From Bacilli bacterium (GTDB taxonomy: Bacteria > Bacillota_I > Bacilli_A > ML615J-28 > CAG-313): a stretch of DNA of 64,000 nt. Where the stretch lies: NCBI GenBank assembly GCA_017501465.1, contig JAFVWY010000002.1, positions 1 to 64,000 of the forward strand, in the 5' to 3' direction. A model generated the notes under the pieces. That model did no database searches, had not been told where the DNA came from, and was given only the letters and a program-made list of their open reading frames with translations. The translations under genes were made by a program, and so were the position numbers. Of this stretch, positions 10,638 through 24,428 are shown piece after piece. Within the stretch, counting starts at the first letter, position 1; every line of letters starts with the position of its first letter.

Positions 10638-10677
10638 ATTATACCATAATTTTCTTATTGTATACACTATAAGCCAT
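10638..10677 (-). promoter_or_regulatory. Repeated 40-bp early promoter element, copy 1
   Basis: On the minus strand: ATGGCT, 4 nt, GTGTATA, 17 nt, TATAAT, with TGG forming an extended -10. The stop of the gene behind it lies 6 bp away. It drives the gene at 10172-10609 and probably everything further left. Confidence 0.85.
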
Positions 10678-10683
10678 ATTTTT

Positions 10684-11040
10684 TTAAATAAAATATGTTT
10701 TACAATTTTCATCTAATCTGCTAACTTTAAAATCTGCAATAACTTCTCCAACTGCTAACTCAAGTTCAACACTAGATTTTTTCCAAAATTCATCATTTTC
10801 TTCATATACTTCATAATCGTTTTCCATTTGTTGTCTTAAATAAGCACCATTTCTATAAACTAAATCATATAAAGTTTCTTCTCTAATAACTTTTTCAAAC
10901 TCTGCCCAAGTAATATGTTCGTTTCTTCTATCATCACTTTTTCTAATACACTCAATATTCCAGTACCACTCTGTCTCTGTAATAGACCAAGTTTTTGTAT
11001 ATTGAATTATCTTTTCAACTAATTCTTTTAAATTATTCAT
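10684..11040 (-). CDS. Hypothetical protein
   Basis: 118 aa from ATG 11040. A second ATG at 11043 is adjacent; the spacing from GGAAGTG matches other genes better for 11040. Aromatic and acidic (TETEWYWNIECIRKSDDRRN). It is the last gene of its cassette, just behind promoter copy 1. Confidence 0.76.
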   Translation of the reverse strand: MNNLKELVEKIIQYTKTWSITETEWYWNIECIRKSDDRRNEHITWAEFEKVIREETLYDLVYRNGAYLRQQMENDYEVYEENDEFWKKSSVELELAVGEVIADFKVSRLDENCKTYFI

Positions 11041-11587
11041 CATTATCACTTCCGTATTCATCTAATAATTCTAAACTATCAAAGTTTCTTAATTCAGTTA
11101 ATTCACAAGTTTTATCATAATAATCAAAATCTTTTCCTACTTGTTTACTTAATTCATTAATTTCATCTAGTGCTTTCATAAACCCATTTGCCAACCTATC
11201 ATACTCATAATTAGTATGTTTATAACCTAGTTCATCAAAATACCAATTATAACCAATATCTTCACAAGTAGTATATTCACTTTCATTATACTTATCTTTT
11301 TCTATTTCAAAAGTTCCTTTTTTAACAAAATTATAATCAGTATAAACATTATTTGCAATTATAATATCACTATCAAATTCTTGTTTTGTTTTAATCTTTA
11401 ATTCATCTTTATATTCACTATTTATAGCATTTCTATAAACTTTTGAATATAAATCATCAATTTGTTCTCCCATTTTCCATAAGATAGTATCTTCTTCATC
11501 ATCAAATCTACCCTCGTTGTTCTCTCTTATATCGTTTAATAATTCATAACAAATCTTTAATTCTGCTAAAACTTCTTTATCAGTCAT
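11033..11587 (-). CDS. Acidic hypothetical protein
   Basis: 184 aa, very acidic (NNEGRFDDEEDTILWKMGEQ; tail LELLDEYGSDNDE). AGAGGTG precedes the ATG. It overlaps the following gene by 8 bp. No family recognised. Confidence 0.77.
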   Translation of the reverse strand: MTDKEVLAELKICYELLNDIRENNEGRFDDEEDTILWKMGEQIDDLYSKVYRNAINSEYKDELKIKTKQEFDSDIIIANNVYTDYNFVKKGTFEIEKDKYNESEYTTCEDIGYNWYFDELGYKHTNYEYDRLANGFMKALDEINELSKQVGKDFDYYDKTCELTELRNFDSLELLDEYGSDNDE

Positions 11588-11845
11588 TTAAAACACCTCT
11601 TTCAACTTATTTTCTATTTTTAAATAATTCTCCTTTGTAGTATAATCTTGTAAATTCATACACTCAATAATATCTTTTATTTCATCTTTACTTCTACTAA
11701 CTTCTCTAAAGTCATAATCATACAAATAATATCTGTTTCTAGTGTCTTGTCTTAATTCAAACCTATCTTTACTTGCTCTTGCAAGTATTTTATTTAATAA
11801 ATCTAAATCATTATTTAAATCATAATTTTTAAATACAATTTCCAT
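11588..11845 (-). CDS. Small hypothetical protein
   Basis: 85 aa, mixed charge, containing RASKDRFELRQDTRNRYYLY. GAGGTGG precedes the ATG, which overlaps the stop of the gene upstream by one base. No family recognised. Confidence 0.76.
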   Translation of the reverse strand: MEIVFKNYDLNNDLDLLNKILARASKDRFELRQDTRNRYYLYDYDFREVSRSKDEIKDIIECMNLQDYTTKENYLKIENKLKEVF

Positions 11846-12135
11846 TATTCTTCCACCTCAACTACAACAATAGTATATCTTGTTAGCATATCTTCATAAT
11901 CTTCTGTTTCAATATGTATTTCTCTTTCATATCTTTCTTCATTGCTTTCATCATAATCTTGAATATAATAATCTCCACCATTTGATTTTAAATCTTCAAA
12001 CTCTTGATTAACTAATTCATCAAGCACTTCTTTTGCCTTTTCAAAAGTACGATAGCCAACTCTAAAATTATCATTGTATATAGTATTATCAGTATCTTTG
12101 CATAAAATCTCTATCATATAAAACTTATTCTTCAT
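11845..12135 (-). CDS. Small acidic hypothetical protein
   Basis: 96 aa, starting MKNKFYMIEILCKDTDNTIY. It is strand-rich and acidic with a C-terminal TIVVVEVEE strand. The ribosome site is poor (GGTGTTGGG) and the start lies inside the previous gene's end, so translation is probably coupled. A second in-frame ATG at 12117 is an alternative start. Confidence 0.72.
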   Translation of the reverse strand: MKNKFYMIEILCKDTDNTIYNDNFRVGYRTFEKAKEVLDELVNQEFEDLKSNGGDYYIQDYDESNEERYEREIHIETEDYEDMLTRYTIVVVEVEE

Positions 12136-12490
12136 AGCCCAACACCAACTTTTCTAATTCATCAAAATCTATTGTATTAATATATGTTGTTTCTTTATCG
12201 TTCCATAATTCAATACTTTCTGCTAACTTGCAAACATTTCTATAATTATTTTTAGAAATTGTTAAGCACATATCTTTATAATTAAAATCAAAATACTCAC
12301 ATATATCTAAATCTACATTTGTCATACTAATAGTATTATCATTTCCCTTTAATTCTAAAATATAATCATAAACTTTTTTAATATTATCTGTATCTCCAAT
12401 ATTTATACTTAATTTTCTTTCTAATTGTTTATAATCAATATATGCTCTTTTTAAAATTTTCATATCTTCTTCATTATAACCATAATTCAT
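12125..12490 (-). CDS. Hypothetical protein
   Basis: 121 aa, acidic (MNYGYNEEDMKILKRAYIDY). GGAGATG precedes the ATG. No family recognised; it is the second gene of the cassette led by the gene at 12491-12796. Confidence 0.76.
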   Translation of the reverse strand: MNYGYNEEDMKILKRAYIDYKQLERKLSINIGDTDNIKKVYDYILELKGNDNTISMTNVDLDICEYFDFNYKDMCLTISKNNYRNVCKLAESIELWNDKETTYINTIDFDELEKLVLGYEE

Positions 12491-12796
12491 TTAAATCATC
12501 TCCACTTTTTCTAATATTACATAGAAAACTTCTCCACAATTATCAATTTCTTCATTAAATACTTCATAAACTGCAACTATGTTTTGATTTTCTTCTTTAG
12601 CAAGTTTAATATCAAACTCCTTAATATACCAATTATGCTCATCTGTTAAGTTTAACATAATATCATCAACATATTTTTGGAGTTCATTTATTGCAAGTTT
12701 CTTTTCATCATATAGACCAATTATTTTAGTATTAAATCTTAAGTTTTTCATAATTCTAGTTTCATCTATATGACTTTCATATAAGATATATTTCAT
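12491..12796 (-). CDS. Small hypothetical protein, first gene of a cassette
   Basis: 101 aa, starting MKYILYESHIDETRIMKNLR, with strands flanking a helix and a C-terminal EVFYVILEKVEMI strand. It is the first gene behind promoter copy 2, with AAAGGAGAG before the ATG and a leader of about 20 nt. Layout resembles the protein at 9262-9573. Confidence 0.77.
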   Translation of the reverse strand: MKYILYESHIDETRIMKNLRFNTKIIGLYDEKKLAINELQKYVDDIMLNLTDEHNWYIKEFDIKLAKEENQNIVAVYEVFNEEIDNCGEVFYVILEKVEMI

Positions 12797-12822
12797 AATC
12801 TCATCTCTCCTTTGTTATATAT

Positions 12823-12862
12823 ATTATAACATACATTTACTATTATATACACTAATAGCCAT
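12823..12862 (-). promoter_or_regulatory. Repeated 40-bp early promoter element, copy 2
   Basis: ATGGCT-N4-GTGTATA-N17-TATAAT on the minus strand, extended -10 TGT. It begins 2 bp after the stop of the gene at 12865 and drives the cassette 12796 to 10684. Confidence 0.87.
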
Positions 12863-12864
12863 AT

Positions 12865-13314
12865 TTATTGTAGTTTTTCTAAAACTTTTTCTAAACTTTC
12901 TAGTTCCTTTTCATAATCTCCAATAGTATAATTATTTTCCTTTGCATAATCTAATAAACGACCTATTCTATCTTCAATAGCACCTTTGTTGTTTATATAT
13001 AGATTATCTTCTCCATAACTATAACTAATCATATCAACTTCTCCACTAATATACCAGTCTTTTTCTTCTGTATCAGTATCAAAGTTTTTATCTATTACAT
13101 ATAAAGTAATATTATAAGCACTAGCCACAATAGGAATATAACCATTACTAGCCCATTGTTCTATACTGCCAATATAATCTACTCCACCACCACTTATGTC
13201 AAAATCTGCACTATTTACAAGTTCTTCAAGACCACCTTTATCAAAAAGTTCTTTTGCTTTTAAATAGCCCTCATAAGCAAGTTCATAATCAAAATATTTT
13301 CTAGTATCTTCCAT
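12865..13314 (-). CDS. Acidic hypothetical protein
   Basis: 149 aa from ATG 13314; an ATG nine bases upstream overlaps the GGAGATG site. Contains a glycine-rich turn (DFDISGGGVDYIGSIEQW) and an acidic surface. No family recognised; last gene of its cassette. Confidence 0.76.
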   Translation of the reverse strand: MEDTRKYFDYELAYEGYLKAKELFDKGGLEELVNSADFDISGGGVDYIGSIEQWASNGYIPIVASAYNITLYVIDKNFDTDTEEKDWYISGEVDMISYSYGEDNLYINNKGAIEDRIGRLLDYAKENNYTIGDYEKELESLEKVLEKLQ

Positions 13315-13315
13315 A

Positions 13316-13489
13316 CTATTCATCTCCTAACTCTATAACATAATCATTATAATATCTAAAGCTATCAAAAGTACCACCATATTTTTCACTATAATTAAAT
13401 ACACTCATATACTTTTTATCTGCTTTACAATTTTGGAAATAAACTATTCTATCTCCATTTTCTTTTACTAATTCTTGTAGTGATTTCAT
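13316..13489 (-). CDS. Small hypothetical protein
   Basis: 57 aa from ATG 13489, behind a GAGTGAGTG stretch. Contains KENGDRIVYFQNCKADKKYM and ends in an acidic NDYVIELGDE. One base separates it from the following start region. No family recognised. Confidence 0.65.
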   Translation of the reverse strand: MKSLQELVKENGDRIVYFQNCKADKKYMSVFNYSEKYGGTFDSFRYYNDYVIELGDE

Positions 13490-13490
13490 A

Positions 13491-13664
13491 TTATTCACTC
13501 ACTCTTTCTATATATCTAATATCTTCTTCATTTATTCTTTTATCTTCTATTGCTTTTAAAACTTCTTTAATAGCATTTGTAAAAGAGGAGAAAGTCCAAT
13601 AAATAGTTTCGTTTTTTGGGTATCTTATTTTGCAAATACAAACTTCAATATTTTCTTTTTTCAT
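13491..13664 (-). CDS. 57-aa hypothetical protein
   Basis: A frame from ATG 13664 to TAA 13491 that fills the gap between two larger genes. It begins MKKENIEVCICKIRYPKNET and ends INEEDIRYIERVSE. The ribosome site GGAGTTGA lies inside the last codons of the gene upstream, whose stop abuts this ATG. Exact tiling between neighbours makes it a likely real gene. Confidence 0.68.
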   Translation of the reverse strand: MKKENIEVCICKIRYPKNETIYWTFSSFTNAIKEVLKAIEDKRINEEDIRYIERVSE

Positions 13665-14426
13665 TTAATCTTCAACTCCTATTCTTTCTTTCTCTTCTTC
13701 CCAACATTTATCACAATAAGCACTTTGATAATCTTCTTTTTCTTTCCCACAAACTAGACAAATCTTTTTATCTTTTGCAACTTCTTTAAAGTCATCAATA
13801 AATTGTCTAAATTGTTTTAACCACAAATCATAATCTCCAATAGTATATTTTTTTGCAATATCATATAAGTTTTCAAAATATTCAAATGTTTCATCATCAA
13901 TATATTCATCATATTCACTTTCATTTGTTTCATAATCAACTGCACGACCTACAACTCTATCAATTACTTCATCTAATGTCTTATTTCCATTGTTTTCATC
14001 ATAATCTTTGATTTCATTTGTTTGTAAGTCATAAATCATATACATATTTTCTTTATCATCACTTTTTAGAATACACCACTCATAGAAGTTCAAAAAGTCA
14101 TCAAGAGATTTCATTTTATTATCTTTAGTTAAGTCATAAAGACTTATACTTTTATCTAAAATGTCCCTAGTTCTTTCAAACTCCATTTCCCTATATGCTT
14201 TTTGTTTACCATAATCTGTTATTCCAAAAACTTCTTCATCTGTAAATTGTTTTGTATAATTATGATATTCTTCAAAAATTGCATTTCTTTTTTCATCATC
14301 TTTGATATCAATTTCATCTAACTTATCAATTATCTTGCCTAATTCTTCCCATAATTGCCAAGCAAGTTTTAAATCTTTATCTGCATAAGCCTTTTTGCAT
14401 TTATAAACTAATTCTTGATAATTCAT
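13665..14426 (-). CDS. Hypothetical protein with C-terminal zinc knuckles
   Basis: 253 aa. Residues 1-220 are helical and acidic without recognised domain. The C-terminus carries CLVCGKEKEDYQSAYCDKCW, two CxxC pairs that should bind one zinc. GGAGATGAG precedes the ATG. One of the larger proteins of the arm; function unknown. Confidence 0.78.
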   Translation of the reverse strand: MNYQELVYKCKKAYADKDLKLAWQLWEELGKIIDKLDEIDIKDDEKRNAIFEEYHNYTKQFTDEEVFGITDYGKQKAYREMEFERTRDILDKSISLYDLTKDNKMKSLDDFLNFYEWCILKSDDKENMYMIYDLQTNEIKDYDENNGNKTLDEVIDRVVGRAVDYETNESEYDEYIDDETFEYFENLYDIAKKYTIGDYDLWLKQFRQFIDDFKEVAKDKKICLVCGKEKEDYQSAYCDKCWEEEKERIGVED

Positions 14427-14438
14427 AATCTCATCTCC

Positions 14439-15071
14439 TTAATAAATAATTTGATATATTAAATCTGTTCCTTTCACTCTAAATAAACCATTATTGTTTT
14501 CAATTTCATCTAATTTACTCATAAATAATCTAATATCATTTAATGTCATTTCTTCTAAACTAAACTCAAACTCTGTAAGATTATTTAAATCGAGTTTACC
14601 ACTCTTTATTTCTTCCTCATAACTTTCATTGATTTCTTCTTCATCAACTTGAAAGTATACTTCAAAATCAACCAAGTTTTTATTACCATAGAAGTCATAG
14701 TCTTTATCATCAAAATCAATATCTATTGTTAATCTTCCCTCTTCCCATTTTCTTGTTTCTTCCATACCCTCATCTGTGAAAGATATTAAACCAAGATTTC
14801 TATTTGTTGCAAGACTACAATATTTTTTATCTTCTTCATTTAATTTATTATATTCATTTTCCATAAGACCTGCTCCAGTTGTTTGTAATAATTGAATAGC
14901 CTTAATTTCATCACTAACTTTTTCTTTTCTAATAACTTCATAAATGTTTTCAATAATTTCTTCTGCTAAATGTAAACTTGAACTTGTATAAGCACTCCAA
15001 TGATAATAACTATTTGCCAATACTTTATTGTCTTTTCTTCTTTTAATTTCAATATTTAATCTTTGTCCCAT
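14439..15071 (-). CDS. Hypothetical protein, GQR family (paralogue at 6.0-6.7 kb)
   Basis: 210 aa beginning MGQRLNIEIKRRKDNKVLAN, then YYHWSAYTSSSLHLAEEIIE. It shares the MGQR start, basic strand and aromatic patch with the protein at 6050-6742. The remainder is acidic, with a VYFQVDEEEINESYEEEI segment. GGAGTG precedes the ATG. Function unknown. Confidence 0.79.
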   Translation of the reverse strand: MGQRLNIEIKRRKDNKVLANSYYHWSAYTSSSLHLAEEIIENIYEVIRKEKVSDEIKAIQLLQTTGAGLMENEYNKLNEEDKKYCSLATNRNLGLISFTDEGMEETRKWEEGRLTIDIDFDDKDYDFYGNKNLVDFEVYFQVDEEEINESYEEEIKSGKLDLNNLTEFEFSLEEMTLNDIRLFMSKLDEIENNNGLFRVKGTDLIYQIIY

Positions 15072-15083
15072 TTAAATCACTCC

Positions 15084-15359
15084 TTATAAACTAAACTCAT
15101 CTAATTCTAATAACTCTTTAGAAGTCAATTCTAAAAAATCTTCATTTTCATATTCTTCATATACTGCATATAAGTTATCACTTAATTGTGATATACAACG
15201 ACAAGCCGTATCATCTAGCCATAAATCTCTTAATAATGGTATTAGTTTTTGCCCTAACTCATCATTAAACCCACTTGCTTTTAAGCAACTAAACATATAT
15301 AACTCTTCAATTCTTTTATCTCCAAGTTCATTGTAAATCTCTAAAAACTTCTTTTCCAT
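15084..15359 (-). CDS. Acidic hypothetical protein, first gene of a cassette
   Basis: 91 aa from ATG 15359. A longer frame reaching 15416 runs through the promoter and cannot be transcribed in full. GAGGAGAG lies directly upstream. The protein is helical and acidic (YEEYENEDFLELTSKELLEL). It leads the cassette 15359 to 12865. Confidence 0.77.
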   Translation of the reverse strand: MEKKFLEIYNELGDKRIEELYMFSCLKASGFNDELGQKLIPLLRDLWLDDTACRCISQLSDNLYAVYEEYENEDFLELTSKELLELDEFSL

Positions 15360-15386
15360 AGTCTCTCCTCTTTTCTTTACAATTAT

Positions 15387-15426
15387 ATTATAGCATAAGT
15401 TTTCTATTCTATACACTTTTAGCCAT
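15387..15426 (-). promoter_or_regulatory. Repeated 40-bp early promoter element, copy 3
   Basis: ATGGCT-AAAA-GTGTATA-N17-TATAAT, extended -10 TGC. The last codons (MAKSV) and TAG stop of the gene at 15409 are encoded inside the element. Confidence 0.87.
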
Positions 15427-15639
15427 ATTTTTCTTTTCTTTTTTCTTTGGTATTTTTAATTTAGTTTCCCAATAATCAAGAAAACCTTTTAAATTGTTGC
15501 CATACTCAACAAACTTTAAATCATAAGTTGTAAGCAATTTATTGTCTCTTGATATAGTTATTTTATTATCTTGTAATTTAACAACCTTAACCCCACTGCC
15601 TTTTTCTAATGATTTCTTAATCTTATTATAGCAACTCAT
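15409..15639 (-). CDS. Small basic hypothetical protein
   Basis: 76 aa from ATG 15639; an in-frame GTG at 15648 lies in the GGAGTG site. Lysine-rich (MSCYNKIKKSLEKGSGVKVV). The C-terminal residues are read through promoter copy 3, so its 3' end is constrained by that element. Confidence 0.73.
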   Translation of the reverse strand: MSCYNKIKKSLEKGSGVKVVKLQDNKITISRDNKLLTTYDLKFVEYGNNLKGFLDYWETKLKIPKKKEKKNMAKSV

Positions 15640-15651
15640 AATATACACTCC

Positions 15652-16161
15652 TTAATATATTTTAATAGGTAGTAAATAACCAATTTCATTTGTTTTTGTA
15701 TTCTTAATCTCTATCACATACATATAACTATTAAAACCGAACTTTGTATGGATTTCAATTTTATCTGCTTTAATCATCTTTTTGATAGTTTCTAATTTCT
15801 TTAAATCTATTCCAAAATTAATGATTTCTTTTTCTTCTTTAATATCACAAGCATATTCTTTTTTGAACTTAAAATCTTTCTCTTCTTCATCTTCACTTGC
15901 ATTAAAATTATTGATTTCATCAGTTATATCAACTACATTTAAACAAAATCTATCTCTAAAATCTTCATAGATATTTTTAATTGTATCTTTTATCTTTCCA
16001 TTATTTTCTATAAGCACTCCATAATCACTATTTAATAGCACCACAGAACAATTATTACTAATCAAATATCTATCATCATATTTAATATATTTATTCTCTT
16101 GTTCTGCTTTTTTATCATTGTGAATATCTTTCATAAATCTTTTTAAATATACTTTATTCAT
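15652..16161 (-). CDS. Hypothetical protein
   Basis: 169 aa from ATG 16161, chosen for the GGAGAAAAAGAAGT site; a further upstream in-frame start overlaps the neighbouring gene. Contains SEDEEEKDFKFKKEYACDIK and a C-terminal strand-rich part (YVIEIKNTKTNEIGYLLPIK). No family recognised. Confidence 0.75.
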   Translation of the reverse strand: MNKVYLKRFMKDIHNDKKAEQENKYIKYDDRYLISNNCSVVLLNSDYGVLIENNGKIKDTIKNIYEDFRDRFCLNVVDITDEINNFNASEDEEEKDFKFKKEYACDIKEEKEIINFGIDLKKLETIKKMIKADKIEIHTKFGFNSYMYVIEIKNTKTNEIGYLLPIKIY

Positions 16162-16162
16162 A

Positions 16163-16405
16163 TTACTTCTTTTTCTCCTTTTCAATTTCAATTATTGCAT
16201 TTTCAAACATATCATCAATAAAATCTAAACAACTAATCATATCATCATAAGTATTAAACTTATATGTTTTATCTTTCATCACTAAACAATAGTTATTAGC
16301 ACCATTGTTTTTAAACTCTGCTTTAAAACTTCTGTTTTTTAATCTCTTATTTAATCTTTCATTTAATTGTCTATCAATATATTCCAATTTTTCTTTAGTT
16401 TTCAT
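16163..16405 (-). CDS. Small basic hypothetical protein
   Basis: 80 aa: basic N-terminal half (DRQLNERLNKRLKNRSFKAE), acidic C-terminal helix. GAGGTAA precedes the ATG. It lies just behind the SprT-like gene in the same cassette. No family recognised. Confidence 0.74.
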   Translation of the reverse strand: MKTKEKLEYIDRQLNERLNKRLKNRSFKAEFKNNGANNYCLVMKDKTYKFNTYDDMISCLDFIDDMFENAIIEIEKEKKK

Positions 16406-16406
16406 A

Positions 16407-16955
16407 TTACCAAATTACCTCACAATTATCTAAATCTACTATTCTAAAATCTGTTCCACCACATTTTCTATGTATTCTATTACCCTCTGTAAAGCCATTT
16501 AATACCTTTGTAGTCATCTTTTGTTTCTTCCATACTGCACCACATTTAGTACAAGTTATTTCCCATTTGTAGTGAATATGTTTTGTTGGTCTTTGAATGT
16601 TAGCCCTAGCATAGATATTATTAATACTTGTTGTTCTAGTAATATTATATTCTGTTCTATTATTTACATATCTAGCATAGTATTGCCATTTTGCTTTATG
16701 TCCTATTGTATCTTTGAAAGTATGTAATATTTCGTGAATTATAGTGTTTTTGATATCTTTATCACTTCCAACTTCTAATAGCCAACTTGAGATATTAATA
16801 TCACACTTATTGCAACATTGACCTAATCTTTGTTTTGCACGATAATTAATTTCAAAAGTCATATTTGTGTTTAGATTATCTCCTAACCCTATCTCCTTTA
16901 ATTCTTTAACACTTTCATTGACAAGTCTATTTAGTTTTTCTTGTAATGTTTCCAA
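16407..16955 (-). CDS. SprT-like zinc metalloprotease
   Basis: 182 aa from TTG 16955. This start has AGAGGAGATG 6 nt upstream; the longer frame to 17051 passes through promoter copy 4 and lies upstream of the transcript start. The active site is plain: HEILH at residues 74-78 and the third zinc ligand H86 in GHKAKW, as in the SprT/Spartan family. A C-terminal zinc ribbon follows (TCTKCG near 130, RKCGG near 158). SprT-like proteins act on DNA-associated or DNA-crosslinked proteins. In a phage early cassette it could remove host proteins from DNA or defend against a protein block; that is inference. First gene of its cassette. Confidence 0.9.
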   Translation of the reverse strand: METLQEKLNRLVNESVKELKEIGLGDNLNTNMTFEINYRAKQRLGQCCNKCDINISSWLLEVGSDKDIKNTIIHEILHTFKDTIGHKAKWQYYARYVNNRTEYNITRTTSINNIYARANIQRPTKHIHYKWEITCTKCGAVWKKQKMTTKVLNGFTEGNRIHRKCGGTDFRIVDLDNCEVIW

Positions 16956-16988
16956 AATATCATCTCCTCTTCTTTTGTTTACATATAC

Positions 16989-17028
16989 ATTATAACATAG
17001 ATTTCTTATTCTATACACAACTAGCCAT
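16989..17028 (-). promoter_or_regulatory. Repeated 40-bp early promoter element, copy 4
   Basis: ATGGCT-N4-GTGTATA-N17-TATAAT, extended -10 TGT. It starts 3 bp after the stop of the small gene at 17032 and drives the SprT-like gene. Confidence 0.88.
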
Positions 17029-17031
17029 ATT

Positions 17032-17190: not shown

Positions 17191-17191
17191 A

Positions 17192-17677: not shown

Positions 17678-17707
17678 AATATCAATTCATCTCCTTTAAC
17701 TATATAC

Positions 17708-17747
17708 ATTATATCATATATATACAACTATATACACGATTAGCCAT
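17708..17747 (-). promoter_or_regulatory. Repeated 40-bp early promoter element, copy 5
   Basis: ATGGCT-AATC-GTGTATA-N17-TATAAT, extended -10 TGA. The stop codon of the gene at 17740 lies within its upstream half. It drives 17677 to 17032. Confidence 0.87.
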
Positions 17748-18192: not shown

Positions 18193-18204
18193 AAATCTCA
18201 ACTC

Positions 18205-18435
18205 CTATGCTAATTCATTTCTAAATAATGTTTTAACAAGTTTTCCCTTTTCTTTGATTTCTAAATAATCACTATCTGTGATATCTGCTTTTCCCTCAAT
18301 ACTTAATTTAATAATATCTCCATTGAAGAACTCAATTTCAACATATTTTTTCATAACATAACTTGCATTATGATTTTTATTAAACACAACTGCATTTTTA
18401 TATAATCTTATTTCCTTTGTTTTCTTATCTAACAT
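18205..18435 (-). CDS. Small hypothetical protein behind a structured leader
   Basis: 76 aa, mixed charge with two beta-rich stretches (YVEIEFFNGDIIKLSIEGKA). TAGGAGAG precedes the ATG. Its message starts near 18562 and carries the 35-bp leader hairpin, about 25 nt upstream of the start codon. No family recognised. Confidence 0.76.
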   Translation of the reverse strand: MLDKKTKEIRLYKNAVVFNKNHNASYVMKKYVEIEFFNGDIIKLSIEGKADITDSDYLEIKEKGKLVKTLFRNELA

Positions 18436-18459
18436 TTTAATCTCTCCTAACTTTATTTT

Positions 18460-18556
18460 CCCTTTATAGACCTTATAGAGAATATCAAATAGGTAGTGAT
18501 ATAATCAACTTTTTGGAGATGACCTACTTAATACCCTCTATAAAGCCTATAAAAGA
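18460..18556 (-). ncRNA. Long leader hairpin (35-bp stem, 27-nt loop)
   Basis: The arms are 18522-18556 and 18460-18494 with a loop at 18495-18521. Read as minus-strand RNA all 35 positions pair: 27 Watson-Crick and 8 G-U. On the plus strand those eight positions would be A-C mismatches, so the pairing appears kept for the leftward RNA. The stem begins about 6 nt from the expected transcript start. The loop shows CATCTCC, complementary to the GGAGATG ribosome sites used by many genes of this arm. Role unknown: an mRNA-stabilising 5' structure, an RNase III substrate or a regulatory RNA are all possible. Confidence 0.75.
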
Positions 18557-18568
18557 CTTTATATAAAT

Positions 18569-18608
18569 ATTATATCACGAATATTCAAAGCTATACACAA
18601 TTAGCCAT
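18569..18608 (-). promoter_or_regulatory. Repeated 40-bp early promoter element, copy 6
   Basis: ATGGCT-AATT-GTGTATA-N17-TATAAT, extended -10 TGA. It starts 1 bp after the stop of the gene at 18610. The predicted transcript opens with the long leader hairpin. Confidence 0.87.
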
Positions 18609-18609
18609 A

Positions 18610-18837
18610 TTAATATTCTAAATTTTCAACTTCTTCATCTGTTAGTAATATTCTGTTTATATCTTCATCATCAAGTTTTTCAAACATAACTTCCATTAGA
18701 GCAACAAAATTAATATTTATACTTTGTTTAGTATCATAATACTTTCTAATATTCATTATTTCATCAGTTTCAAACTTGAACTCTTTACTAGAGCCTATAA
18801 TCTCTTGTAATAACTCAACTTTATTCAAATCTTCCAT
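18610..18837 (-). CDS. Small acidic hypothetical protein
   Basis: 75 aa, acidic (VMFEKLDDEDINRILLTDEE). GAGGTGG precedes the ATG, which overlaps the stop of the upstream zinc-ribbon gene by one base. No family recognised. Confidence 0.75.
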   Translation of the reverse strand: MEDLNKVELLQEIIGSSKEFKFETDEIMNIRKYYDTKQSININFVALMEVMFEKLDDEDINRILLTDEEVENLEY

Positions 18838-19088
18838 TATTCCACCTCAATTAAGTTTCCCTCTTTATCATAAACATTATGCCCTGTAAATTCCATATAA
18901 TACCACTCTTCTCCCTCTAAACCACAATTACAACATTTATAAGGGAAGTAAGCATTTTCTCCCTCTGATTGTATAGAACCATATTCTAATTCTTGTTCTT
19001 TACAATGAGGACAAACTCCCATACTATTTTTTAAATCTTTTATATCAATTTTTGGGTAGTTTCTCTCTTCTTCATCTGTATATAACAT
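18837..19088 (-). CDS. Small zinc-ribbon protein
   Basis: 83 aa with CPHC near residue 27 and YKCCNCGLEGEEWYYM near residue 52. Similar ribbon proteins with a CPxC...CxxCG..GxEWY pattern are common in phage genomes. GGAGTTG precedes the ATG. Zinc binding is inferred from the cysteines; the partner is unknown. Confidence 0.78.
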   Translation of the reverse strand: MLYTDEEERNYPKIDIKDLKNSMGVCPHCKEQELEYGSIQSEGENAYFPYKCCNCGLEGEEWYYMEFTGHNVYDKEGNLIEVE

Positions 19089-19105
19089 ATATTATTCAAC
19101 TCCTT

Positions 19106-19639
19106 TTAAATATATTCAATATCATAGTTTTCCATATACCAACTATTTCTTTTAACTTTTTCTGCATTGAACTTCTTTGCTTTTTCTTTATCAACATAAT
19201 TCATTGATACACTTGTTTTATTTAATCTAACAATGTATAAACTTTTACTTCCTTTTCTTCTTAACACACAATTTTTAACTGCATATTTATTGATTTCATC
19301 TTCATATTTTTTAAATACATTGTATAGTTCATAATCTTGTCTATTTTCTTTTGAATAAACTTGTCTAAACTCTTCTGTAAAGTTTCCATTTCCAATATAA
19401 TCAAAACTACAAACTAAATCTTCATATTTTCCATTGCTTGTATGAATATTTCCACAAATAATGTCATAGTATAGATTAGCAATTTTATCTTCAATTACAT
19501 TTAATTTTGGGTATAAATCTTCTATGCTTTCATAGATAAACTTATCTTCAAAATCTCTCCAGTTGCTATCTGCTAAAACTCCACTAATTTTATTATTTTT
19601 TCTATCAATTTTTATGTTTTTTGCTTTATAATAACCCAT
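19106..19639 (-). CDS. Hypothetical protein, first gene of a cassette
   Basis: 177 aa, basic overall, starting MGYYKAKNIKIDRKNNKISG. The N-terminal strand-turn-strand (KIDRKNNKISGVLADSNWRD) is followed by helices, then a basic C-terminus (EKAKKFNAEKVKRNSWYMEN). GGAGAAATG precedes the ATG, with a short leader from promoter copy 7. Confidence 0.76.
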   Translation of the reverse strand: MGYYKAKNIKIDRKNNKISGVLADSNWRDFEDKFIYESIEDLYPKLNVIEDKIANLYYDIICGNIHTSNGKYEDLVCSFDYIGNGNFTEEFRQVYSKENRQDYELYNVFKKYEDEINKYAVKNCVLRRKGSKSLYIVRLNKTSVSMNYVDKEKAKKFNAEKVKRNSWYMENYDIEYI

Positions 19640-19671
19640 AAATCATTTCTCCTTTTCTCATTTACAAATAT

Positions 19672-19711
19672 ATTATAACACATATTTTGTATTCTATACA
19701 CTTTTAGCCAT
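19672..19711 (-). promoter_or_regulatory. Repeated 40-bp early promoter element, copy 7
   Basis: ATGGCT-AAAA-GTGTATA-N17-TATAAT, extended -10 TGT. It begins 7 bp after the stop of the gene at 19719 and drives 19639 to 18610. Confidence 0.88.
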
Positions 19712-19718
19712 AAAAACT

Positions 19719-19979
19719 TTATAAAGTTTCATCTCCATAATAACTATCTATAAATTGACTATATAAAGTTCTTGCCATACCATAATCATCATTGATTTCA
19801 AAAGAGCAACCCTCTTTTCTATCAATTACATTGATATATTTATATTTAAACATATCATCATTTTCTTTGTTTAGTTGTCTTTCTATTAAACTACAAATTG
19901 TATCAAAACTCCCAACGCATAAATCGGTAGAATAATCAATATAAGTACAACTATAAACAAATCTATCTGTTTTGTCCAT
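19719..19979 (-). CDS. Small hypothetical protein
   Basis: 86 aa from ATG 19979; an in-frame upstream GTG overlaps the GGAGTG site. Contains three cysteines and aromatic residues (RFVYSCTYIDYSTDLCVGSF). No family recognised. Confidence 0.75.
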   Translation of the reverse strand: MDKTDRFVYSCTYIDYSTDLCVGSFDTICSLIERQLNKENDDMFKYKYINVIDRKEGCSFEINDDYGMARTLYSQFIDSYYGDETL

Positions 19980-19991
19980 TATAATCACTCC

Positions 19992-20633
19992 TTAATAACA
20001 ATATGAGACAATTTTACCACTACTTAATTGTAAATAGTTTCCAGTTTCAAGCAAATCATTTCCAAACTCTTCATCATTAAAATATGGTACTTTGTCATAA
20101 CCTAAACTGAACTTTTCTTCTTCAACCATTTCATCAAAATCTCTAAAAACATAGCCAACAATAGCCCTATCTTGATATTCAAGTCCATAGTTTTCAAAAA
20201 TAGTTTCAACTTCATCATCTGTCAAATCATATTCATTTTTAACATATTCTTTTTCATCTGCAATTACTTTTTCAAATAGTTTTTTATTTTCATCACTTAA
20301 TAATCTTTTTTCAATAGTGTTTTTATATTCTTCAATGATTTCTAGTCCTCTTTTATATTTATCACTATCTTTTTCTATTCCATAGCCTAATTCATTTAAT
20401 TCATCATCAAGTTCAAATATTTTCATAAACTCTTCTTTAGTTAGAATAGTCTCTAAATCATCAAAATTGTTTTCTACAATATCTCTTAATTCTTTTTCAA
20501 AGCCACAGAAACAAGCCCCGTGAATATGTAGTCCACCAAAATAATGATTACACTCAAAACCACTAAACTCAATATATTTTACGATATCTCTATCATCATC
20601 ATTTTTTATTTTTGCTAAAAATAATTTTTCCAT
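19992..20633 (-). CDS. Acidic hypothetical protein
   Basis: 213 aa from ATG 20633; GTG at 20642 lies in the GGAGTG site. An N-terminal HYFGGLHIHGACFCGFEKEL segment has clustered H and C that could bind metal. The remainder is strongly acidic and helical. No family recognised. Confidence 0.76.
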   Translation of the reverse strand: MEKLFLAKIKNDDDRDIVKYIEFSGFECNHYFGGLHIHGACFCGFEKELRDIVENNFDDLETILTKEEFMKIFELDDELNELGYGIEKDSDKYKRGLEIIEEYKNTIEKRLLSDENKKLFEKVIADEKEYVKNEYDLTDDEVETIFENYGLEYQDRAIVGYVFRDFDEMVEEEKFSLGYDKVPYFNDEEFGNDLLETGNYLQLSSGKIVSYCY

Positions 20634-20648
20634 AATTTTCACTCCTAA

Positions 20649-20879
20649 TTAATTATAATTTATTATATCTTGTAAAGTTTCCATTGCCGATACAAGACTT
20701 TCCAAATCTTCATTTTTAATGATATAGTTATTTCCTAAATCATAATTTTCTTTTTCATCTGTTAAGTCGTTCATATATTCAATATCATTGATAACAACTC
20801 CAATTAAATACTTAACTGCATTTAATATCTCTAAATTATCATAATTGTTTTCAATTTTTTCAATATCTTTATTAATCAT
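20649..20879 (-). CDS. Small acidic hypothetical protein
   Basis: 76 aa from ATG 20879 behind GGAGATTTG. Acidic and helical (NDIEYMNDLTDEKENYDLGN). No family recognised. Confidence 0.74.
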   Translation of the reverse strand: MINKDIEKIENNYDNLEILNAVKYLIGVVINDIEYMNDLTDEKENYDLGNNYIIKNEDLESLVSAMETLQDIINYN

Positions 20880-20893
20880 AATCAAATCTCCTC

Positions 20894-21058
20894 TTAATAG
20901 TCCATTAAGTCTCCATTTTCTGCTAAATATATGCCAAGTGGTATCAACCTATTGTGAGCCTCTAACCACTCTATATTGCCATTTAAATAGTCTTTAATAA
21001 TGTCTAAATGTTGTTCTTCTAGTTGTCTAAATCTTAACTTATATTGTAAAGTTCTCAT
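20894..21058 (-). CDS. 54-aa hypothetical protein
   Basis: A frame from ATG 21058 to TAA 20894 filling the gap between two larger genes, with GGAGTGATTTTG before the start. It begins MRTLQYKLRFRQLEEQHLDI and ends LAENGDLMDY. Good ribosome site and exact tiling support a real gene; function unknown. Confidence 0.7.
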   Translation of the reverse strand: MRTLQYKLRFRQLEEQHLDIIKDYLNGNIEWLEAHNRLIPLGIYLAENGDLMDY

Positions 21059-21070
21059 CAAAATCACTCC

Positions 21071-21439
21071 TTAACTGAATTGTCTAGTTTCTATTGCTTT
21101 ATATAATTTATTTAAATCTCTAGCAATTTCTGTCTTTTCAAAATCTTTGATAACTTGTTCTTTTTCTCCCTTTTTAAATCTATCAACATTGTTTTTATAT
21201 TTATAGCTTTCAATAAATCTGTTAAGTTCATCTGCTTTTATGTTATTTACTGCTTTAAACATATTACTTTGGTATGTATAACTTTCCCAAGTTCTATTTA
21301 AGTATTTTGTTTTTGTTTCTCCAAAATCAAAGCCGTTTCTTATAACATTTGTTTTATGTCCCCAACCACTTGAATTACTCCAACTTTCATTGACTAATTG
21401 CCAAACTCTTTTTCCAATTTTTAATGTTCTAATTTCCAT
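21071..21439 (-). CDS. Basic hypothetical protein, first gene of a cassette
   Basis: 122 aa, basic, with tryptophan/serine-rich N-terminal part (LVNESWSNSSGWGHKTNVIR) and lysine-rich C-terminal helices. One of the few basic proteins of the arm. GGAGATG precedes the ATG. No family recognised. Confidence 0.77.
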   Translation of the reverse strand: MEIRTLKIGKRVWQLVNESWSNSSGWGHKTNVIRNGFDFGETKTKYLNRTWESYTYQSNMFKAVNNIKADELNRFIESYKYKNNVDRFKKGEKEQVIKDFEKTEIARDLNKLYKAIETRQFS

Positions 21440-21463
21440 AATATCATCTCCCTTTACATATTA

Positions 21464-21503
21464 ATTATAACATAACTTTTTTATTCTATACACATTTAAC
21501 CAT
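21464..21503 (-). promoter_or_regulatory. Repeated 40-bp early promoter element, copy 8 (variant)
   Basis: ATGGTT-N4-GTGTATA-N17-TATAAT, extended -10 TGT. The upstream hexamer differs by one base from the consensus. It starts 7 bp after the stop of the gene at 21511 and drives 21439 to 19719. Confidence 0.85.
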
Positions 21504-21510
21504 ATTTTTA

Positions 21511-21705
21511 TTAAAAATCTAGTAAACAATGTAATTTCCATTGTAAATGGTCTTTGTCTCTTTCATCTACAATTTTAATAACTACATACATTATTCCTTT
21601 GTTTTCAAGTTCTTTTACAATATAGTCCAATGTATCTTTATCTTCTAATTTTAGTGTTTTTATATAATGTTCTTCTTCAAATCTCACTTCATATCTGCAT
21701 TTCAT
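21511..21705 (-). CDS. Small hypothetical protein
   Basis: 64 aa, beta-rich start (MKCRYEVRFEEEHYIKTLKL), then a helix and a second strand. The strand-helix-strand layout resembles the gene at 4744-4956. GGAAAGAGAG lies upstream. A single-gene cassette between promoter copies 8 and 9. Confidence 0.72.
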   Translation of the reverse strand: MKCRYEVRFEEEHYIKTLKLEDKDTLDYIVKELENKGIMYVVIKIVDERDKDHLQWKLHCLLDF

Positions 21706-21741
21706 AAGATTTCATCTCTCTTTCCTTTTCTTTACAATTAT

Positions 21742-21781
21742 ATTATATCATTTATTTTCCATTATATACACATTAAGCCAT
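21742..21781 (-). promoter_or_regulatory. Repeated 40-bp early promoter element, copy 9
   Basis: ATGGCT-TAAT-GTGTATA-N17-TATAAT, extended -10 TGA. The Met-Ala-stop end of the gene at 21773 lies inside it. It drives only the 64-aa gene. Confidence 0.87.
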
Positions 21782-22105
21782 ATTTTCTTTGCAATTTAAT
21801 ATTCTTTTTGATATAATTTCCAATTCCTTATCATTGAATAATTTTTCAATTTTTTCATTTTCTATAATTAATGAATTAAACTCTTTTTTGATATTTTCAA
21901 AATCTCCTCTTATATCAAAAACCCAATTACTATAACCAAGTTCAAAACCAATATTAGCAAGTTCAAAACTATAATTTAAGCCGATATAAGCAAGTGTCCC
22001 ACAATTTCCCTCTAAAAAATCATAATCTTCTTCAATAGTCTTTTCTGTTTCAACTAAATCTTTTTTAAACTGCATTATATAATCTAAAAATCTATTTTTT
22101 TCCAT
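21773..22105 (-). CDS. Hypothetical protein
   Basis: 110 aa from ATG 22105, chosen for GGAAGATG at the usual spacing; upstream in-frame starts overlap the neighbour. Helical and acidic with a central EGNCGTLAYIGLNYSFELAN. The last two codons are read through promoter copy 9. Confidence 0.74.
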   Translation of the reverse strand: MEKNRFLDYIMQFKKDLVETEKTIEEDYDFLEGNCGTLAYIGLNYSFELANIGFELGYSNWVFDIRGDFENIKKEFNSLIIENEKIEKLFNDKELEIISKRILNCKENMA

Positions 22106-22349
22106 TTTCTTCATCTTCCTTTGCTTTTTCATTGTCAAAATTATAGTTTTTATGTCTTAATTCAACCATATCTGCATAAATATTCATTTGATAGCCAATT
22201 CTCAATAAATAAGCCAAAGTGTCATATTTAATCAAATTATTATCATCTACTAAAATATATTCATAATTATTTTCTGCATTGTATTTTACTGCTTTTTCAA
22301 CTTCATCTCTATGTTGTAAACTTATTTCCAAAATCTTTTTAATTTTCAT
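22092..22349 (-). CDS. Small hypothetical protein
   Basis: 85 aa from ATG 22349 behind GGAGTTG. Helical with lysine-rich start (MKIKKILEISLQHRDEVEKA). Overlaps its downstream neighbour by 14 bp. No family recognised. Confidence 0.73.
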   Translation of the reverse strand: MKIKKILEISLQHRDEVEKAVKYNAENNYEYILVDDNNLIKYDTLAYLLRIGYQMNIYADMVELRHKNYNFDNEKAKEDEENGKK

Positions 22350-22638
22350 TATTTTCAACTCCTATCTTTTTATATTCATCTTCAATATATTTCATATAAT
22401 CAATATACCATTTTTCATTTTTAAATACTTCATCACAACCAACTTCAATATAATCTTCTTCAATTAATATTCTCTTGCAATAAAGTTCTTTCTCTTGTTT
22501 TTCCTTTTCTGTTTGTTTTTCAACATTTACCATTAAACTTGCAATTATTCCAAGAATAACGATTACTCCACAAAATATTAATAAGCCTTTAATAATTTCA
22601 TCTGTTCTTTCATAACTGCCTTTTTGGTATATACTCAT
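22339..22638 (-). CDS. Single-pass membrane protein
   Basis: 99 aa. Residues about 18-38 form one transmembrane helix (GLLIFCGVIVILGIIASLMV), followed by a charged helix (EKQTEKEKQEKELY) and an acidic C-terminus. GAGGGAAA precedes the ATG. Topology suggests a short N-terminus and a cytoplasmic or external charged tail; function unknown. Confidence 0.76.
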   Translation of the reverse strand: MSIYQKGSYERTDEIIKGLLIFCGVIVILGIIASLMVNVEKQTEKEKQEKELYCKRILIEEDYIEVGCDEVFKNEKWYIDYMKYIEDEYKKIGVENNEN

Positions 22639-22662
22639 TTTATTTTCCCTCTACTTTCCATT

Positions 22663-22953
22663 TTAAGCCAAATCTATAATATCTGCTAGTCTTATTCTTT
22701 TAAAGTCATTTTTTCCGTTTTCATCTTTAAAATGTAGCATTGCACTCATTGTATTATTTTCTAAATCTTTTTCAATTTCAAACATAATATTTGTTTTTGG
22801 TCTTGTATAATATTCATATACATAATTTAAGTGCATTGTTCCAATATATCTGTTAGTTCTACTCATAGATACATTATAGCCTTTATTCTTTAATTCTTTT
22901 CTTATTTCCTTTAAAAAGTCGTTTGTTTCTTTGCATATATTTAAATCAAACAT
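22663..22953 (-). CDS. Small basic hypothetical protein, first gene of a cassette
   Basis: 96 aa from ATG 22953; the longer frame to 22980 enters the promoter. GGGAGATG lies upstream. Mixed charge: KEIRKELKNKGYNVSMSRTN, then strands (HLNYVYEYYTRPKTNIMFEI). No family recognised. Confidence 0.76.
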   Translation of the reverse strand: MFDLNICKETNDFLKEIRKELKNKGYNVSMSRTNRYIGTMHLNYVYEYYTRPKTNIMFEIEKDLENNTMSAMLHFKDENGKNDFKRIRLADIIDLA

Positions 22954-22978
22954 AGTCTCATCTCCCTTAACTAATAAC

Positions 22979-23018
22979 ATTATATCATTGTTTTTCTATT
23001 CTATACACTCATAGCCAT
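22979..23018 (-). promoter_or_regulatory. Repeated 40-bp early promoter element, copy 10
   Basis: ATGGCT-ATGA-GTGTATA-N17-TATAAT, extended -10 TGA. The final MAMSV codons and TAG stop of the gene at 23001 are inside it. It drives 22953 to 21773. Confidence 0.87.
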
Positions 23019-23402
23019 AATTTTTTGATATTTTTGTTTATGTTTACAATTTCTACAAAATACATTTGCTTTCCTTATTTCAAAATAATTATGATATAGT
23101 ATTTTTCCGTTTTTAGTGATTATATCTCCCACTTGTCTATGATTTCCCTTTAATACTTGTAAAACTTCCATTTTAAAAGTATGATTACATAAGTTTCCAA
23201 AATACTTGTTTTTGATAACCTTAATAAAATAATATTCATATCTATAACTTTTTTCCGTTGTATTATATACATAAAGCCTTAATATGCCTTTAGAATTGTT
23301 AGCAATATCATTTGAATTATTATAGTCCAGTTCATCAAAATTGCTTTCCATTAGAGCCGTATCTAATAAGCCACGACTATTTACTTTCCATTTATTTTCC
23401 AT
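23001..23402 (-). CDS. Hypothetical protein with C-terminal cysteine motif
   Basis: 133 aa from ATG 23402, behind GGAAGTGTAGG at the spacing typical here; earlier in-frame starts have no ribosome site. Strand-rich middle (SYRYEYYFIKVIKNKYFGNL) and a C-terminal ANVFCRNCKHKQKYQKIMAM stretch that could hold a metal. The 3' end overlaps promoter copy 10. Confidence 0.7.
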   Translation of the reverse strand: MENKWKVNSRGLLDTALMESNFDELDYNNSNDIANNSKGILRLYVYNTTEKSYRYEYYFIKVIKNKYFGNLCNHTFKMEVLQVLKGNHRQVGDIITKNGKILYHNYFEIRKANVFCRNCKHKQKYQKIMAMSV

Positions 23403-23522
23403 TTTCCTACACTTCCAATTTTTTTCCATCTTTTTTGGAGTTTTAAACTCCCACAAAATCAAGTTAAGCATTTATGGAGAACTTGACTTTTATTTTAAGC
23501 CAAGAACTCCACAAAACTCTTT
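23403..23522. other. Short gene-free stretch with degenerate repeats
   Basis: No convincing gene. The 12-mer GCATTTATGGAG (23468-23479) recurs at 24259-24270, and CTCC(C)ACAAAA words occur here twice and again near 24208. In minus-strand translation both places give broken FCG..L-like and LHKC-like stretches. I read these as remnants of one decayed small gene; evidence is thin. Confidence 0.35.
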
Positions 23523-23789
23523 TTATTCTTCATCTTCTTTTGGTAGTTCTCCATTTTCATCTAGTCCAAGAGCCTCATATATTTCATCTCTTTCAAACCA
23601 AATATAATCATTTAAAGTTGTATCTTCAACTTCTTCATCTCCAAATAAACCCTCTAAATAGTCCATAAATTCTTCTTCTAAATCTGCATTTTTAATATCA
23701 TCTAGTGTATCTCTAGCACCACTCCAAGAATTATCATATAAGTTATAAAAATCATTTTTACTATATTCATTTCTAGTTATAATTGTCAT
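23523..23789 (-). CDS. Acidic hypothetical protein, first gene of a cassette
   Basis: 88 aa, very acidic (LEEEFMDYLEGLFGDEEVED; tail NGELPKEDEE). GGAGATG precedes the ATG, with a short leader from promoter copy 11. A DNA-mimic-like charge pattern, but no family recognised. Confidence 0.77.
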   Translation of the reverse strand: MTIITRNEYSKNDFYNLYDNSWSGARDTLDDIKNADLEEEFMDYLEGLFGDEEVEDTTLNDYIWFERDEIYEALGLDENGELPKEDEE

Positions 23790-23819
23790 AATATCATCTC
23801 CTCTTTCATTGACAATTTT

Positions 23820-23859
23820 ATTATATCATATATTTTTTATTTTATACACTTCTAGCCAT
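23820..23859 (-). promoter_or_regulatory. Repeated 40-bp early promoter element, copy 11
   Basis: ATGGCT-AGAA-GTGTATA-N17-TATAAT, extended -10 TGA. It starts 1 bp after the stop of the gene at 23861 and drives 23789 to 23001. Confidence 0.87.
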
Positions 23860-23860
23860 A

Positions 23861-24076
23861 TTATTTTAATTTTTCTTTTGTAAAATCTGCATTAAAATCT
23901 TTGAACTTCTTAAACTCAATACCTATATTATCAAGTAATTTATAAAAGTCTTTTGTATCAAGTCCTAACTTCTCCAAATTATGAATAGCAATTTTAATAT
24001 TTACTAATTCATTGTCAACATTTTTAATATCTTTATAGATATTCATTAATTCAGTTTTTACTTCTTTATTATACAT
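23861..24076 (-). CDS. Small hypothetical protein, single-gene cassette
   Basis: 71 aa, helical, probably coiled coil (KTELMNIYKDIKNVDNELVN). GGGAGAAG precedes the ATG. Lies between promoter copies 11 and 12. No family recognised. Confidence 0.74.
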   Translation of the reverse strand: MYNKEVKTELMNIYKDIKNVDNELVNIKIAIHNLEKLGLDTKDFYKLLDNIGIEFKKFKDFNADFTKEKLK

Positions 24077-24104
24077 TTTTCTTCTTCTCCCTTCATTTGC
24101 TTTA

Positions 24105-24144
24105 ATTATATCATATATTTATGATACTATACACGATTAGCCAT
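24105..24144 (-). promoter_or_regulatory. Repeated 40-bp early promoter element, copy 12
   Basis: ATGGCT-AATC-GTGTATA-N17-TATAAT, extended -10 TGA. It drives the 71-aa gene. Confidence 0.86.
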
Positions 24145-24380
24145 TTTTTTGTTGCTTTTTTTGAAAAGTCCACCACAATTTTAGAAAAGCCATTTAATTC
24201 TAGCCACTCCCCACAAAACAAGCCGTGCCGTTTTAATTCTCCCACATTTTTAGCCGTTGCATTTATGGAGTTTTTGGAGTTGGTAGCATTTAATAATATC
24301 AAACATTTGTTTTATAATACTTTTGTTTGTGTTTTCTTCTTCTGCTTGTCTTGTTTGTTTTATGGTCTCATCTCCTAACT
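24111..24380 (-). pseudogene. Possible decayed small gene behind promoter copy 13
   Basis: The region follows a promoter and a good TAGGAGATG ribosome site near 24368-24376, but no ATG stands at the right distance; an ATA is there instead. From that ATA a 37-codon frame runs (IKQTRQAEEENTNKS...). In a second frame, from a TTG at 24302, 63 codons are open (NVGELKRHGLFCGEW), ending inside promoter copy 12. The two frames look like a gene broken by a start-codon change and a frameshift, or one read by frameshifting. Low certainty. Confidence 0.35.
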
Positions 24381-24388
24381 ACAAAAAC

Positions 24389-24428
24389 ATTATACCACCA
24401 AAAACAAGAACTATACACAAACAGACAC
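24389..24428 (-). promoter_or_regulatory. Repeated 40-bp early promoter element, copy 13 (degenerate upstream box)
   Basis: GTGTATA-N17-TATAAT with extended -10 TGG is intact, but the upstream hexamer reads GTGTCT instead of ATGGCT. It is the rightmost copy and faces leftwards from the divergent boundary with the plus-strand island. Confidence 0.7.

Follow-up and report, generated by a model that had tools for sequence, protein, structure and literature searches.

A rigidly spaced promoter element with a phage-specific box in an SPbeta-like phage

Introduction

What drives a block of small phage genes when all of its promoters have one and the same sequence where the usual -35 hexamer should be? 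This question is raised by a 64,000-nucleotide (nt) stretch of contig JAFVWY010000002.1 (the window), which comprises bases 1-64000 of a 129,311-base pair (bp) phage contig that we call C9. Here 13 copies of a 40-bp promoter element, ATGGCT-N4-GTGTATA-N14-TGn-TATAAT, lie on the minus strand between positions 10638 and 24428 with identical spacing throughout. A sequence-only reading of the window had described these copies and suggested that a phage activator or repressor grips ATGGCT/GTGTATA beside sigma-A polymerase. Among the literature matches listed, with most subscription papers out of reach, we found no account of these 13 elements.

Results and Discussion

Thirteen copies of one promoter element

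We refer to ATGGCT as half1, to GTGTATA as half2, and to the two with their linker as the 17-bp box. A pattern search confirms all 13 copies with the coordinates, strand and rigid spacing first read from the letters (G150 and G156 are sibling phages described below):

10638..10677, minus strand: promoter copy 1, with half1 ATGGCT, half2 GTGTATA, TGn and TATAAT; drives the 10172-10639 region
12823..12862, minus strand: promoter copy 2; its first gene is 12491-12796, and G150 has the orthologous promoter at 13646
15387..15426, minus strand: promoter copy 3, from pattern and matrix scan
16989..17028, minus strand: promoter copy 4, of the SprT-like open reading frame (ORF) 16407-17051; its orthologs in G150 (16657) and G156 (100654) have other boxes
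17708..17747, minus strand: promoter copy 5, from pattern and matrix scan
18569..18608, minus strand: promoter copy 6, with a long-hairpin leader downstream
19672..19711, minus strand: promoter copy 7, from pattern and matrix scan
21464..21503, minus strand: promoter copy 8, half1 ATGGTT
21742..21781, minus strand: promoter copy 9, from pattern and matrix scan
22979..23018, minus strand: promoter copy 10, from pattern and matrix scan
23820..23859, minus strand: promoter copy 11, with an ortholog in G150 at 26776
24105..24144, minus strand: promoter copy 12, with an ortholog in G150 at 27062
24389..24428, minus strand: promoter copy 13, at the start of the block, with a degenerate half1 (GTGTCT)

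GTGTATA, TG and TATAAT are exact in 13 of 13 copies, so that the extended -10 (TGnTATAAT) claimed for every copy holds. At a spacing of 17 bp the -35 hexamer is TGTATA in all 13 and agrees with TTGACA at three of six positions, invariant yet unlike the consensus, as had also been noted. Half1 is exact in 11 copies and differs by one base at 21464. At 24389 it had been called lost; given that four of its six bases remain, degenerate is the better word.

A chance origin of the 13 copies is excluded. The sequence GTGTATA-N14-TGnTATAAT is expected 0.0016 times per 64 kb from base composition and was found at no site in 60 first-order Markov simulations, versus 13 observed. A matrix scan of the entire 129-kb contig scores the 13 copies at 33.6-75.1 bits and the next site at -3.9. 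The sequence-only reading had also asked whether host DNA would match equally well; it does not, as the 21-base pattern at up to three mismatches finds these 13 phage sites exclusively in the 1,557,629-base assembly (control matches, 0). The exact 21-base pattern has no match in viral contigs. A 15-base pattern matches 113 stretches there, of which the best 80 have a single match each, and we read these single matches, L044 set apart, as chance. Allowing up to two mismatches among the 14 specified bases, we find no free-standing box in the 129 kb of C9; all recognisable boxes thus belong to promoters.

The box alone gives some room to the idea that the phage has captured a host regulator that reads it. 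Three copies with a single mismatch lie on other contigs of the assembly, and the hosts of the three phages compared here may differ. However, at up to one mismatch the 17-bp box has 12 matches on the phage contig against these three elsewhere and one for the reversed control, and the 40-bp pattern is on no other contig even at three mismatches, in an assembly that may not be that of the host. We consider a captured host regulator highly improbable.

The element is conserved in a near relative

A near relative of the C9 phage, contig C87 of genome G159, is about 95% identical, with long aligned pieces mostly at 93-98%, and carries 12 exact copies of GTGTATA-N14-TGnTATAAT. For these 12 copies, in two aligned stretches of the block, the consensus positions differ from C9 at 0 of 252 and the linker and spacer positions at 1 of 216, versus 473 of 14326 coding positions (3.3%) and 22 of 661 other intergenic positions. 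This contrast indicates that the box and its spacing are under constraint. The alignment stops upstream of the 24105 copy, and a 13th element is still present there in G159. In this non-aligning leader, C9 has a degenerate half1 with an intact half2, and G159 has half1 ATGGCT with half2 AAGTATA (two changes); both elements keep the exact spacing to TGnTATAAT.

Sibling phages keep the register and replace the box

Two sibling phages carry the same arrangement with other boxes. G150 (132,932 bp; terminase 92%) has 10 copies with the consensus GTGCA-N5-GTGnAATA in the same register as C9, nine of them seeded from TGnTATAAT and the tenth from a scan; the proximal part is found in all 10 and the distal GTGCA in seven. 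G156 (108,674 bp; terminase 72%) has five copies of TAGGCA(T/C)A. Markov controls gave a mean of 0.05 sites (maximum 1) against the 10 observed in G150, and 0 against the five in G156. When the threshold is the score of the second-lowest site in its own phage, no box matrix gives a match in either of the other two phages. In the partial relatives G158 and G157, no box family was seen in the stretch read for the first promoter of the block.

Five promoters of C9 have a counterpart in G150: the leader promoter and four that precede orthologous genes. In these pairs TGnTATAAT is the same at 39 of 40 positions, half2 at 20 of 35 and half1 at 9 of 30. The SprT gene has three different boxes in the three phages. 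The slot of the -35 hexamer is non-consensus in 28 of 28 promoters (TGTATA in C9; TGAAAT, TGCAAT or TGTAAT in G150; AGGCAT or AGGCAC in G156); all 28 retain TG, and 24 retain TATAAT. Other promoter-like sites in C9 (32111, 102870, 109052, 113876) have TTGACA, as do some in G150.

Because the relatives keep the register yet swap the box, a phage-specific protein very probably reads it, activator and repressor readings taken together, and the sequence comparison points to a fast-changing phage protein as this regulator. The earlier suggestion of a phage regulator on ATGGCT/GTGTATA is supported as regards promoter-like units that precede 37 small ORFs and have a phage-specific site covering the -35 and reaching upstream from it; the box exchange between siblings is what a phage protein reading the box would lead one to expect. 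Two blocks gripped beside the polymerase fit as well, except that half2 sits on the -35 hexamer itself.

Alternatively, there may be no dedicated regulator: the copies would then be an in-phage family of strong host-type early promoters, alike through copying and selection, with an UP-like or structural upstream part. The predominance of A and T around the box is in keeping with this, as are the similar early-promoter families of other SprT-carrying phages, which have TTGACA or TTGACT and mostly TGnTATAAT (10 promoters in L200, 6 in L202). T4 early promoters likewise have a common extra consensus (PMC2988021; the other papers used for comparison are PMC10516654, PMC6550527 and PMC4351075). Yet the boxes contain near-invariant G/C bases, are sibling-specific and come with no -35, and the preference of host polymerase should not vary in this way. 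N4 and N14, moreover, differ among the copies while the box is constant. We therefore think it improbable that no dedicated regulator exists.

Activator or repressor

The explanation we favor, with a probability of roughly 0.5, is that these are sigma-A promoters of one phage regulon at which a phage activator reads the box and replaces the -35 contact. The 17-bp box (about -46 to -30, counted from a -10 placed at -12 to -7) would stand in for the usual -35 and be read by a phage protein, and the TGn/-10 half would be left to host sigma-A polymerase. From a site on and just upstream of the -35, like a class II activator or T4 MotA, the protein would switch on the small-gene block together. We infer protein binding, phage encoding and activation.

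Activation over repression is a lean rather than a finding. We favor it because the -35 is non-consensus while TGn and the -10 are strong, and put it first because the layout matches the middle and not the early promoters of T4. In T4 middle promoters a MotA box occupies the -35 place and an excellent -10 is needed, whereas T4 early promoters keep a strong -35 (PMC2988021). The likeness extends to a phage box in place of the -35, a host -10 that is kept (here with TGn), a fixed distance and many promoters, and the feature of a box replacing the -35 beside a sigma -10 is found in all 13 copies (TGTATA 13/13, TATAAT 13/13), where a protein would read the box. The MotA box is centered at -30 (PMC2988021), in contrast to the 17-bp box here, which spans about -46 to -30 and has two blocks. 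We find no MotA or AsiA relative among the families listed in Pfam scans of overlapping sets of 64, 80 and 40 proteins (25 of 55 families listed for the 80-protein set).

Activator sites of the lambda CII type lie at the -35 and consist of direct repeats whose period is 10 bp. The boxes resemble them in two of the three phages, with two blocks 10 bp apart near the -35; this 10-bp relation is the best of lags 6-15 in C9 and G150. They differ in sequence and are shifted upstream relative to the CII position. The CII family is absent from the Pfam matches listed.

Several observations weigh against activation or against the promoter model beneath it. A strong extended -10 is able to work without a -35, so these promoters may be active unaided. 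If the block genes are expressed first, an activator would need making before the block. The SPbeta repressor element sits at one fixed place in some SPbeta promoters, and the 10-bp repeat that holds in C9 and G150 fails in G156. The weakest G150 site (27410) scores 14.0, less than chance sites reach with the G150 box matrix in C9 (best 14.6) and G156 (best 16.0). TATAAT occurs in just two of five G156 copies, which weakens the notion of a perfect -10. Finally, an 18-bp spacer would make the -35 TAGGCA in G156 (4/6) and GTGAAA in 5 of 10 G150 copies (4/6). We had also considered fixed spacing alone as proof of an activator and dropped this argument, given that SPBRE, the repeated element of SPbeta, is fixed in about half of 10 SPbeta regions too.

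The main competitor is that the boxes are operators of the master repressor of a temperate phage, overlapping the -35 and silencing the block in lysogeny; sibling boxes would then differ because immunity specificity diverges. The precedent comes from SPbeta, a relative by RNA polymerase and terminase, in which the repressor MrpR acts at SPBRE in 10 promoter regions (PMC10516654), partly in one register. There, TAGACA stands 17 bp before the -10 slot in 5 of 10 regions (the slot being TATAAT in three and TATCAT or TAATAT in two), and SPBRE fills the spacer up to the -10. Unlike the box, which is promoter-tied in 13 of 13 cases, SPBRE adjoins the ribosome-binding site in two of the 10 regions, at yopV and yopM, and its sequence, AAATAATATGTATAT, is unrelated to ATGGCT-N4-GTGTATA. 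The stoperators of cluster A mycobacteriophages offer a second parallel, being asymmetric sites in one orientation whose motif differs between related phages; most of them lie away from promoters (PMC6550527), whereas C9 has no box in such a place at two or fewer mismatches. The phage also encodes a tyrosine recombinase with the residues R-K-H-R-H-Y. Nevertheless, repressor operators need not destroy the -35, yet all three phages lack TTGACA there, and no CI/Cro-type repressor family is among the Pfam matches listed. No case of integration was seen, the ends of four related metagenome-assembled genome (MAG) contigs not having been checked for host genes. We regard a master repressor as a serious possibility that we would not back at even odds.

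Returning to a protein that reads the box, of either kind: three related phages have many genes, the register and TGn/-10 in common and three different boxes, and this would be a natural specificity swap. If so, these phages offer a view of how the regulator of a phage evolves in concert with a dozen or so scattered sites. They would also supply an orthogonal promoter/regulator set for low-GC hosts.

The phage genome

An identical 141-bp repeat at both contig ends makes it probable that C9 is the complete genome of a phage, circular or terminally redundant. PHROG matches include terminase, portal and tape measure. The terminase is 28-29% identical to those of SPbeta, phi3T, Geobacillus E3 and Clostridioides LIBA6276, and an RNA polymerase resembles SPbeta YonO; by these similarities C9 classifies as an SPbeta-like phage.

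32714..35506, plus strand: YonO-like single-chain RNA polymerase, 930 amino acids (aa); matches SPbeta YonO in blastp at E 1.5e-34 across 516 columns and has a DxDxD motif

This polymerase is 85% identical in G150 and 69% in G156. We do not think that it reads the 13 promoters; late genes may use promoters of its own. Most minus-strand genes occupy the stretch that leads from 24.4 kb backward past the contig end to about 103 kb, and most plus-strand genes that from 24.6 to 102.8 kb, which also has two minus-strand genes at 30108-32084. By their record titles, relatives of the phage are MAG contigs from goat, sheep and rabbit gut. A nucleotide comparison of 24 kb of the structural region with phage records gave no match, nor did Rfam at gathering thresholds. 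Another near relative is a 77.6-kb phage contig (JAFRFB010000006.1) filed in a Methanobrevibacter MAG, probably through a binning error.

Candidate regulators

A regulator of the box should occur in all of these phages, near-identical in G159 and diverged in the two siblings G150 and G156, and we looked for such proteins by tblastn. Three stand out:

31326..32048, minus strand: protein with Bro-N and Cys4 parts, leading candidate; start put at ATG 32048
3451..4458, minus strand: tyrosine recombinase, 335 aa, second candidate; full catalytic set by eye on an alignment
2916..3476, minus strand: helical protein of 186 aa, third candidate by covariation; modelled with low confidence (predicted local distance difference test, pLDDT, 66)

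The first is 98, 51 and 30% identical in G159, G150 and G156. Its Pfam Bro-N match (E 8.9e-5) scores 23.5 bits against a cut-off of 25.6. In BFVD its AlphaFold model (pLDDT 83.9) matches an uncharacterised phage protein best (4e-22) and Bro and Ant-like proteins at E of about 2e-3 and weaker; against PDB it has no match at E ≤0.001. On these matches we assign a Bro-N fold to the protein. The gene and the polymerase operon stand back to back, and in relatives a TTGACA promoter precedes the gene. Covariation supports this protein weakly, because divergence is not clearly higher in its Bro-N part than in its C-terminal part (53 versus 54% in L165; 26 versus 33% in G156). That the Bro-N/zinc protein is the regulator is a tentative and somewhat unlikely proposal. 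We hold as doubtful the fuller picture in which an activator, perhaps this protein, supplies the -35 contact in place of host sigma-A polymerase at a block of takeover genes and the box is re-invented as a unit between close relatives, giving every phage a transcription code of its own for genes that are otherwise shared.

The tyrosine recombinase (99, 66 and 37%) is more likely an integrase than the regulator. We rejected it as a direct homolog of SPbeta MrpR: the catalytic R, K, H-x-x-R, H and Y are kept, unlike in MrpR, which is without most catalytic residues (PMC10516654). By blastp to YopR the C9 protein gives E 2.4, G150 0.57 at best and the G156 homolog 9e-5 (18% over 175), and the recombinase matches YopP better than YopR. 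Another protein could play the MrpR part. A TTGACA promoter-like site lies just upstream of the recombinase gene (T of TGn at 4493), and the recombinase profile matches in nine of nine distant SprT phage records, some matches being weak and partial.

In the 186-aa protein (98, 50 and 39%) no DNA-binding domain was recognised. A 68-aa protein at 4481-4687 also fits the covariation (100, 58 and 43%), as do several block genes. Two proteins were set aside: that at 25027-25557, which is 51% identical in G159 despite the same box and was not found in G156, and an early protein matching HTH_38, by eye HNH-type (4949-5428), not preferred given its 78% in G159. A genome search for HTH_38 gave a match on another contig. 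The regulator may be of a kind that existing family models fail to recognise.

Promoter families in distant SprT-carrying phages

A search with SprT gave 11 loci, of which two are G156 and G150 and nine are more distant. Using a repeat finder, we find that four of the nine have a strand with 6-10 similar promoters (7 in L199 and 9 in L206, in addition to the 10 in L200 and 6 in L202), at least one of the L206 set looking spurious; the opposite strands and the other five loci have 1-3. The repeat finder did not recover SPBRE in SPbeta and so can miss AT-only elements. Because four of nine distant loci have them, phage-private promoter families may be common in the neighborhood of the SprT gene. 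In these four, nearly all copies have TTGACA or TTGACT as the -35, and the absence of TTGACA sets C9, G150 and G156 apart.

In L199 (IMGVR_UViG_3300028805_000065), the seven promoters have a palindrome like CCACCTAATAGGTGG, imperfect in most, between TTGACA/TTGACT and the -10; it is exact in one of seven, and its right arm AGGTGG is present in all seven. Such a repressor-like layout counts in favor of a repressor in the C9 phage also, and the palindromes are perhaps an operator family.

The gene block under the promoters

10172..24076, minus strand: block of 37 small ORFs (chosen by length, minus strand preferred) under the 13 promoters; median 101 aa, net negative charge in 24 of 37

This count is consistent with the more than 30 small genes first estimated. 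We infer that the block is expressed early. A single block gene has a SprT-like domain. In 11 of 13 cases a Shine-Dalgarno-like word and start codon end 31-42 nt from the first base of TATAAT; the exceptions, 18569 and 24389, have long leaders. A consensus terminator scan at 8-26 kb gave 2 hits against 1.3 expected, both on the plus strand. As no intrinsic terminator is thus seen closing the cassettes, transcription likely reads through between them.

The leader at 18434-18562 (minus strand), behind the 18569 promoter, folds into a long, nearly perfect hairpin (-44.1 kcal/mol, z -6.9) that is kept in G159; short blastn found no match in G150 or G156. It is possibly an RNase III site or a recombinase-related repeat. 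Two minus-strand genes of the block, 11033-11587 and 12125-12490, are 94% and 71% identical to G150 versus 55% and 46% to G159, and because they are closer to G150 than to the near relative, the identities suggest a likely recent exchange inside the block. Divergent from the block, two similar promoter-like sites on the plus strand at 24514 and 24962, ATTAACAAAAAGTACTTG...GTGGTATAATA, precede fast-evolving genes at 24632-25881.

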